DNA from: Nitrosopumilus adriaticus
GTDB taxonomy: Archaea; Thermoproteota; Nitrososphaeria; Nitrososphaerales; Nitrosopumilaceae
Direction of reading: 5' to 3'
DNA: 64,000 nucleotides
NCBI RefSeq assembly: GCF_000956175.1
Contig: NZ_CP011070.1
Location: forward strand, 1,110,147 to 1,174,146
Shown: positions 20,085 through 56,136 of the stretch, in pieces
Layout of the letters: each line of letters opens with the position of its first letter
Numbering within the stretch: position 1 is the first letter of the stretch
Program-made: the position numbers and the translations under genes
The notes under the pieces: model-generated
What the model was told of the DNA's origin: nothing
Seen by the model: only the letters and a program-made list of their open reading frames with translations
Database searches by the model: none

Positions 20085-20764
20085 GTGGAGTTTATTCAAA
20101 ACGAAGAACCAAATGTTGAGAAACCAATCATCATAGCTGCAATGCAAGACATGGGTAATGTAGGAAGCATTGTAGTGAATTTCATCAATGAATCATTAAG
20201 AACAAAAACATTCAGAACTGCAAAAACACCATATCCAACATATGTAGTTGATAATGGAGGATACATTGATCTCCCTGATGAAAGTTGGGAATACAAATAC
20301 ACAGATGATTTAATCATATTTGGAGGCGGAAAGGGTCAGCCACAAAGCAATAGTGAATTAAATGCATTGTGTCAAGATGTAATGGATATTGCACAAAAAT
20401 ATTCTGCAAAATTCATTTACACGTTAGGAGGATTCCATACTAACATACCACTAAACAACAATCCAAAAACATACATCACTACAACATCAACAGAGTTAAC
20501 AAAACAGATGGAAACCCTAGACGTCAACACGACTCCTCAAAAATCCATAATCACAGGATTTAACGGATTGATTTTGGGATTTGCAAAAAAAATAAAATTC
20601 ACGGAATTGGCATGTATGGGGAACTAAATGAGCCTGAAATTCCACAATACAGAGCAGCGATAAGTATCATTAAAACTATTGAAAAATTGACATATAGGAA
20701 ATTGGGGGATACTAGCCAATTAGAAATAATGGCTCAAGAGATCGAAAGAAAATTCAAAAATTAA
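20085..20764 (+). pseudogene. PAC2-family protein gene, frameshifted near its 3' end
   Basis: The PAC2 fold belongs to proteasome assembly chaperones and related archaeal proteins. The first frame (GTG at 20085) carries IIIAAMQDMGNVGSIVVNFI and IYTLGGFHTNIPL, but after GLILGFAKK it drifts into KFTELACMGN and stops at 20627. Adding one A to the eight-A run (about 20584-20591) restores NKIHGIGMYGELNEPEIPQY and continues to a stop at 20764, giving about 226 residues. The restored stop lies two bases from the convergent small gene, which fits the true end. Broken as given; may be a consensus error. Confidence 0.8.
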
Positions 20765-45473: not shown

Positions 45474-46070
45474 TTATTTGATTGATTCAGTGAATTCTTC
45501 AGTACCGTCTTTTGTAATTACAAGAATATCCAAACCATCACCACTTGCAGAATCTCTTAATGCTGCAGAACGAACTGCACGTTTTGCCAAATCAATTGCC
45601 TCATCTTTTGTCATGTTTGGCTTGAACTGAGGATCTAATACACCCAATGCCATTTCTGCACCTGTTCCAACTGCTGCATATTCATCTGGAAGAACAGAGC
45701 CAAGTGGGTCTAGTGTATACATTATTGGTTTGTCTACAACACCTCCAACTATTACCTGAGTAAGTAATGGGAAGTATCTTCGCTCATACATCATATTTGA
45801 CATCATTTTTGCCACTGTATTTGGAGGGATATCTCGTTTGAGTTCCATTTTCCTTATTTTGGCAAGAGCGGCGATTTGAAGTGTCAGGATTTGCATATCA
45901 GCTACAAGCCCAGCACATGTTGCACCAACTTTATTCGTAATAGGAAAAGTTTTCTTTGTGGATTTACTTACGAGGAAATTACCAAAGGCAATCCTTTTTT
46001 CGCTTGCAAAAACTACGCCACCATCAAAAGTAATTCCAACAGCAGTTGCCCCTGGCATATACATTGACAT
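45474..46070 (-). CDS. psmB: Proteasome beta subunit without the catalytic threonine
   Basis: A 198-residue 20S proteasome beta subunit. The family start is normally G-TTTVGI, where the first threonine is the nucleophile. Here the propeptide MSMYMPG is followed by ATAVGITFDGGVV, so the position of Thr1 is alanine. Other active-site residues appear retained: the glutamate in FASEKRI at position 17, the lysine at 33 and the RDSASGD loop. The subunit can assemble but should be inactive; a second, active beta subunit must lie elsewhere in the genome. No alpha subunit is in the window. Confidence 0.9.
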   Translation of the reverse strand: MSMYMPGATAVGITFDGGVVFASEKRIAFGNFLVSKSTKKTFPITNKVGATCAGLVADMQILTLQIAALAKIRKMELKRDIPPNTVAKMMSNMMYERRYFPLLTQVIVGGVVDKPIMYTLDPLGSVLPDEYAAVGTGAEMALGVLDPQFKPNMTKDEAIDLAKRAVRSAALRDSASGDGLDILVITKDGTEEFTESIK

Positions 46071-55407: not shown

Positions 55408-56136
55408 ATGATTCACATGAGTTCAGAATCCAAAAATGAAAAATTTCTGATTGTCGCGTTCCCTAGTGTGGGCTTAGTAGGATCTTTTGCAATATCATAT
55501 CTTAGCGCCCAATTACAAATGAAGGATATAGGAGAACTAGAAATCTCAGAGATTTCCCCATCATACGTAATTGAAAAGGGAGAAGCTTATGGACCTATTA
55601 GAATATACAACAAGGACAATATTTATGCAATTTTAGCTGGAATTCCCATCAATATTCAAACAACATTTGAATTAATTAAAAAATCCATAGACTTTGCAAA
55701 ACGCAACAACATTTCCAAAATAATAATTCCAAGGGGATTAGAAGTGGACAAAAATTTCAAAGGAGACCCAGTCTCATATGGACTTGCAGTCAACAAAAAT
55801 TCAAAATCGGCATTAGATGAAATTAACTTACCCTCAGTTCCAGGAGCAACAGTATTCGGTGCCGATGCAAGTGTAATTTCTGCATTAAAAAATTCAGATG
55901 CAACGGCCATTATTTTGTATACTACTTGCCGAATGATGATGCCTGATGATGATGCAATCATAAAGTCAATTAAAACGCTATCAGACATAATCAGAGTCAA
56001 AATAGATACTGAAAAATTCGAAGAGCGCCTGGAGAAAATCAACAGGGAGAATCAGAAGATAATAGAAGAGACTAGAAAATATTATGAAAACTCATCTGGA
56101 AGATCCACAGTCACCCCAACTCCGGGCATAGGTTAA
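55408..56136 (+). CDS. PAC2-family proteasome assembly chaperone-like protein
   Basis: About 242 residues from the ATG at 55408 (MIHMSSESKN); an earlier ATG at 55366 adds 14 unconvincing residues. The PAC2 core begins FLIVAFPSVGLVGSFAISYL, followed by YAILAGIPINIQTTFEL and GATVFGADASVISALKNSDA. The C-terminal part is a charged coiled coil with a Pro-rich end. PAC2 proteins help assemble the proteasome alpha ring in eukaryotes; archaeal versions bind proteasomes. Unlike the frameshifted relative at 20085 this copy is intact. Confidence 0.85.
   Translation: MIHMSSESKNEKFLIVAFPSVGLVGSFAISYLSAQLQMKDIGELEISEISPSYVIEKGEAYGPIRIYNKDNIYAILAGIPINIQTTFELIKKSIDFAKRNNISKIIIPRGLEVDKNFKGDPVSYGLAVNKNSKSALDEINLPSVPGATVFGADASVISALKNSDATAIILYTTCRMMMPDDDAIIKSIKTLSDIIRVKIDTEKFEERLEKINRENQKIIEETRKYYENSSGRSTVTPTPGIG

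Follow-up and report, generated by a model that had tools for sequence, protein, structure and literature searches.

A proteasome beta subunit lacking the Thr1 nucleophile in Nitrosopumilus adriaticus and its archaeal relatives

The locus and the proteasome genes of its genome

The window analysed here is a 64,000-nucleotide stretch of Nitrosopumilus adriaticus DNA (contig NZ_CP011070.1, positions 1,110,147 to 1,174,146), and one of its genes encodes a proteasome beta subunit with alanine in place of the catalytic threonine. The open reading frame (ORF) runs from 46070 to 45474 on the minus strand, the plus strand of the same coordinates being interrupted by stops, and its product reads MSMYMPG-ATAVGITFDGGVVFASEKR. 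The features of the gene are as follows.

45474..46070, minus strand: Thr1-less proteasome beta subunit, 198 amino acids, coordinates with stop codon (ORF, PF00227, predicted fold)
46050..46070, minus strand: N-terminal extension MSMYMPG with Gly(-1) retained (sequence; predicted to be uncleaved)
46047..46049, minus strand: Ala codon at the position of the Thr1 nucleophile (alignments, Ala codon use)
46044..46046, minus strand: Thr at position 2, apparently taken for Thr1 in the Sulfolobus orthologue (alignments)
45999..46001, minus strand: active-site acid Glu17, with Asp at this position in most Thr1 paralogues (alignment)
45951..45953, minus strand: Lys33 (alignment; retained in 261/263 Thr1-less orthologues)
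45552..45554, minus strand: Asp166 (alignment; retained in 261/261 readable Thr1-less orthologues)
45543..45545, minus strand: Ser169 equivalent (alignment)

The Pfam profile Proteasome (PF00227) matches the protein with 164.5 bits against a cut-off of 22.4, and its AlphaFold2 model (pLDDT 86) reaches TM scores of 0.82-0.87 (by query length) against the beta subunits of T. acidophilum and S. acidocaldarius in Foldseek. Family profile and modelled Ntn-hydrolase beta fold thus point to a 20S proteasome beta subunit. The NCBI equivalog for the archaeal endopeptidase beta, TIGR03634, gives 207 bits, below its cut-off of 224; among its traits Thr1 is absent (Ala), and Lys33, an acid at position 17, Asp166 and Ser169 are present.

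The protein begins M-S-M-Y-M-P-G-A-T-A-V-G-I. Ungapped alignment with archaeal betas equates ORF residues Ala8, Thr9, Glu24, Lys40, Asp173 and Ser176 with positions 1, 2, 17, 33, 166 and 169 of the beta register; against the canonical G-T1-T2-T3-V-G, Ala8 lies under Thr1 and Thr9 under Thr2. The original prediction, that Thr1 is replaced by Ala and that the remaining active-site residues are kept, is borne out by this alignment of the minus-strand gene: Glu17, Arg19, Lys33, Asp166 and Ser169 are present, and Ser129 is replaced by Thr. The betas of T. acidophilum and A. fulgidus, which are active, likewise have Glu17. With Ala1 here and throughout its close relatives, the subunit appears to have no usable nucleophile.

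Four PF00227 genes are encoded in the genome, a single contig with 99.9% completeness: a pair of alphas, the window beta and a beta with Thr1. The latter, a second beta of the kind that the original prediction proposed to look for, lies elsewhere in the genome (G000:C1:123974-124516) and carries HGTTTVG together with Asp17, Arg19 and Lys33. The two alpha genes (G000:C1:1029421-1029972 and G000:C1:510567-511115) are both outside the window. Most of the genomes sampled beyond Nitrosopumilaceae show only three matches to the family, as would fit a single alpha and a pair of betas.

Across Nitrosopumilaceae, and to some extent in neighbouring families, the beta locus is flanked by homoserine dehydrogenase and a PUA gene, and in many genomes also by M20 peptidase and DoxX genes; no proteasome-related neighbours were found there. 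PAC2-family genes number four in the genome, two of them in the window (20133-20618 and 55447-56061, both on the plus strand), at distances of about 25 kb and about 9 kb from psmB, which say nothing about interaction. Nothing found here supports the idea in the original prediction that PAC2 proteins are particular assembly partners of this beta. The first of these is short, a 188-aa frame whose PAC2 match ends at position 167.

Loss of Thr1 across Thermoproteota and Asgard archaea

Orthologues were taken from close relatives, from most of the phylum's sampled families (one or two members each), from one family including S. acidocaldarius, and from Asgard archaea, the nearest archaeal relatives of eukaryotes; the named genomes read included those of Bathyarchaeota, Brockarchaeota, Nezhaarchaeota, Culexarchaeum, Methanomethylicota and Thermofilum. 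This gave 263 distinct orthologues without threonine at position 1, drawn from the Asgard archaea and from some 76 of the phylum's families. Divided from 100 distinct Thr1 sequences by the position-1 residue itself, they have 245 Ala, 11 Ser, 7 Gly and 0 Thr at that position. About 30 congeners have Ala at the Thr1 site, and a second genome of the genus (G023) encodes a protein identical to the window beta (100%).

Whether the substitution is fixed in Nitrososphaerota, a question raised with the original prediction, can be answered for the genomes sampled: Ala1 is fixed there, and Thr1 loss reaches through Thermoproteota and into most sampled Asgard genomes. By our own count 39 of 49 sampled Asgard genomes have a non-Thr beta, and one Asgard group (e.g. 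G456, G464, G471, G476) showed a Thr1 beta only. A Thr1-less beta is missing among the matches listed for 2 of 65 Thermoproteota genomes (G106, G288), both of them fragmented drafts. Euryarchaeota are represented by two PDB-derived sequences only (T. acidophilum and A. fulgidus), both with Thr1.

In a tree of Thermoproteota sequences calculated without the position-1 column, the non-Thr betas lie on one side of a branch with support 83; with Asgard sequences added, the non-Thr clade has support 99, with yeast beta3 and beta6 inside it. Thr1 loss thus has a single origin in the tree. The dead beta spans Thermoproteota and Asgard archaea and therefore likely predates eukaryotes, as proteasomes built from dead and live subunits together probably do.

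The Ala1 codons of the clade are GCA (100), GCT (63), GCC (44) and GCG (38), those of the close relatives being all GCA; with all four alanine codons in use, it is the residue and not the codon that is kept. Median dN/dS among close relatives is about 0.03 for the window beta and 0.04 for the Thr1 beta, so the window beta is under strong purifying selection. That a read error, a pseudogene or local decay accounts for the missing Thr1 could be entertained only on the ground that the catalytic residue is missing, and it has a negligible chance of being right: the loss is fixed in 263 orthologues, and the identical protein in the second genome, the four codons and the purifying selection rule out sequencing or assembly error, a pseudogene and lineage-specific decay alike.

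The active site around the lost nucleophile is retained almost completely across the dead clade, with Lys33 in 261 of 263 members, Asp166 in 261 of 261 readable sequences and Ser169 in 257 of 261 readable ones. This retention is not obviously required by a purely structural role and counts against a scaffold-only reading. These residues may serve to hold either the fold or the N-terminal extension, given that mutation of Lys33 in yeast beta5 opens a cavity and destroys the integrity of the active site (PMC4792962).

Individual members of the family vary further. In some orthologues of Sulfolobaceae type (L343, L346, L347, L348, L351, L353, L354) Ser1 goes together with Val17 in place of Glu17, and L344 has Ala1 with Val17. 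The few clade members with Ser1 might have kept activity; a Val17 speaks against this. Some Asgard betas (L401, L402, L410) have lost further active-site residues and are more decayed than the window beta, L401 and L402 having Ser1 with Lys33 changed to Ala or Ser. A third type of beta starts M-TTIV, with Thr1 right behind the start, or has a short leader followed by TTIVG; it occurs in Nitrososphaeria (L110, L117, L120, L121, L123) and in other classes (L206, L208, L214). Near it in L110, L117, L120, L121, L123, L208 and L214 lies an alpha-like gene, mostly with an STTIGI or STTVGI N-terminus, and the two together look like a second, separate proteasome pair.

The Sulfolobus orthologue and a model of mixed rings

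The orthologous clade includes Saci0662 of Sulfolobus acidocaldarius (PDB 6z46), the nearest orthologue with published experiments, which shares 39% identity with the window beta, has the same fold and a native Ala1, and likewise has a Thr1 beta as partner. The literature gives it a catalytic threonine: a biochemical study of 2015 reports "equivalent threonine residues" for the two betas of S. acidocaldarius, with Saci0662 truncated accordingly (PMC4569737). The register found here contradicts this. In 6z46, the alpha/Saci0662 particle, the beta chain begins M-TAIG with M in the Thr1 register, whereas the native gene (L334, 100% identical to 6z46_H from residue 2) reads LEELP-ATAIG, with Ala as residue 1. 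Given a deposited M-TAIG against a native ATAIG, Thr2 was therefore apparently taken for Thr1; as far as the deposited sequence and the genome indicate, the construct is apparently off by one residue. The same is suggested for other readings and constructs in which Thr2 is treated as Thr1.

According to the same study, alpha and Saci0662 form a stable 28-mer that is inactive, activity appearing only after addition of Saci0909; Saci0909 does not assemble with alpha alone, and it enters the Saci0662 particle at a lower ratio than Saci0662 itself (PMC4569737). The inactivity of the alpha/Saci0662 particle would be explained directly by Saci0662 being an Ala1 subunit.

Could the nucleophile simply have shifted by one residue, leaving Thr2 (Thr9 of the ORF) N-terminal and cutting? 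Thr2 is present in 248 of 263 clade members, and the Sulfolobus authors seem to have read it as catalytic (PMC4569737). However, Thr2 is invariant in the Thr1 paralogues too, which means that catalysis is not what conserves it; a number of Asgard orthologues carry Ala, Cys or Ser at this position; the spacing to Lys33 and Asp166 would be misfit by one residue; and the construct that starts at Thr2 (M-TAIG) belongs to the inactive particle (PMC4569737). Judged on the Saci0662 construct, the Asgard substitutions and the paralogue conservation, Thr2 is very improbable as a nucleophile.

It is probable, in our estimate, that the window gene encodes a scaffold beta without catalytic activity, which shares mixed rings with the Thr1 beta. 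The grounds found here are a Thr1 loss that is fixed and arose once in the tree, purifying selection, the co-occurring Thr1 beta and the predicted fold. The window beta would keep the beta fold and assemble with alpha rings, unable to cut or to process itself because Thr1 is Ala; its MSMYMPG extension would be expected to stay uncleaved, since autolysis needs Thr1. The Thr1 beta (G000:C1:123974-124516) would enter the same beta rings and provide the active sites. With cuts supplied by the Thr1 beta alone, the particle would have fewer than 14 active sites, their number and spacing being set by the proportions of dead and live beta. Assembly in Nitrosopumilus may behave as in Sulfolobus, with a 28-mer of alpha and dead beta that the live beta joins; mixed dead and live rings have been demonstrated only with truncated recombinant Sulfolobus subunits (PMC4569737).

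Both functional claims of the original prediction gain support. That the subunit is catalytically dead agrees with the fixed loss of Thr1 and with yeast T1A subunits, which assembled with propeptide remnants attached, underwent no autolysis and were inactive (PMC4792962). A structural role is supported by Saci0662, which is inactive but assembles (PMC4569737), and by the presence of a Thr1 paralogue elsewhere in this genome.

Other uses of a dead beta can be envisaged. An all-dead particle, built with one of the alphas, might hold, sequester or filter substrates or compete with the live particle; the complete inactive 28-mer that Saci0662 forms with alpha alone (PMC4569737) would be such a particle, and this genome has two alphas. 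This is nonetheless quite unlikely: Saci0909 co-assembles in the Saci0662 particle and fails to assemble with alpha without it (PMC4569737), and the three family matches in most genomes outside Nitrosopumilaceae would fit a pair of betas with a single alpha. Alternatively, the dead beta could be mainly regulatory, with exchange between dead and live subunits tuning proteolysis to stress or to the stage of growth. Such a role shares ground with the mixed-ring reading but puts the exchange at its centre; it is in keeping with the lower ratio of Saci0909 in the Sulfolobus particle (PMC4569737) and with a report that archaea vary their subunit mixtures by conditions (PMC13022661). We think it rather unlikely as the main role, the gene neighbourhood containing nothing related to the proteasome.

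Non-catalytic betas in eukaryotes and other known systems

Eukaryotic proteasomes combine three cutting beta subunits with four non-cutting ones, beta3, beta4, beta6 and beta7, which like the window beta are non-catalytic ring members beside Thr1 subunits. Unlike the window beta, they occupy fixed ring positions and have diverged strongly. In yeast, position 1 is Gly in beta3 and in beta6, beta7 lacks Lys33 and Arg19, and beta4 lacks Asp17 and Arg19.

In a tree with all seven yeast betas, whose query sequences agree letter by letter with PDB, beta3 and beta6 lie inside the dead archaeal clade. Placed singly (beta1, beta3, beta4, beta5, beta6 and beta7), beta3 again falls in the dead clade (99, free tree) and beta6 on the dividing branch; beta4 and beta7 join long Thr1 branches of Asgard archaea, whereas beta1 and beta5 are placed on the Thr1 side. 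In an AU test on about 190 columns, with long yeast branches, beta3 held outside the dead clade had a p-AU of 0.97 and scored better than inside. So few columns and such long branches are too little for a claim of eukaryotic descent. We put forward only tentatively, as a possibility below even chances, that the common ancestor of Thermoproteota and Asgard archaea had mixed dead and live rings and that some eukaryotic dead betas, beta3 or beta6 first and perhaps beta7, descend from its dead beta. If so, the eukaryotic non-catalytic betas would have inherited their inactivity rather than losing activity anew.

One further resemblance, seen by eye, concerns beta7. An Asgard group with Ala1 (L332, L372, L375, L377, L378, L381, L382, L407) has Asp17-x-Leu19-x-Ser21-Trp-Gly, with Met19 in L381, and yeast beta7 has Asp17-x-Leu19-x-Ser21-Tyr-Gly, most other betas having Arg19. 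The shared Asp17-x-Leu19-x-Ser21 pattern is possibly a signal of kinship for beta7.

The beginning of the eukaryotic division of labour between cutting and non-cutting subunits is not settled, and the dead archaeal beta bears on its timing: since Thr1 has been lost naturally, and for good, throughout Thermoproteota and in most sampled Asgard genomes, the split between dead and live betas would lie before eukaryotes. Eukaryotic dead betas are already known, as are the inactive alpha/Saci0662 particle and an archaeal beta with a Thr nucleophile that is needed for assembly, PsmB1 (PF0159) of Pyrococcus furiosus (PMC3605417). In open-access full texts we found no report of the whole clade without Thr1 or of its Asgard reach, and none that Thr2 was mistaken for Thr1.

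PsmB1, like the window beta, is one of two betas, and it is reported as indispensable for reconstitution of the particle; unlike the window beta it has a Thr nucleophile, T7, which its authors changed to Ala for inactivation (PMC3605417). The engineered yeast T1A subunits have the same substitution as the window beta with the rest of the active site intact. Those are laboratory mutants, whereas the substitution in the window beta is natural and ancient, and it offers a clean natural system for asking why Lys33, Asp166 and Ser169 are kept once the nucleophile is lost.
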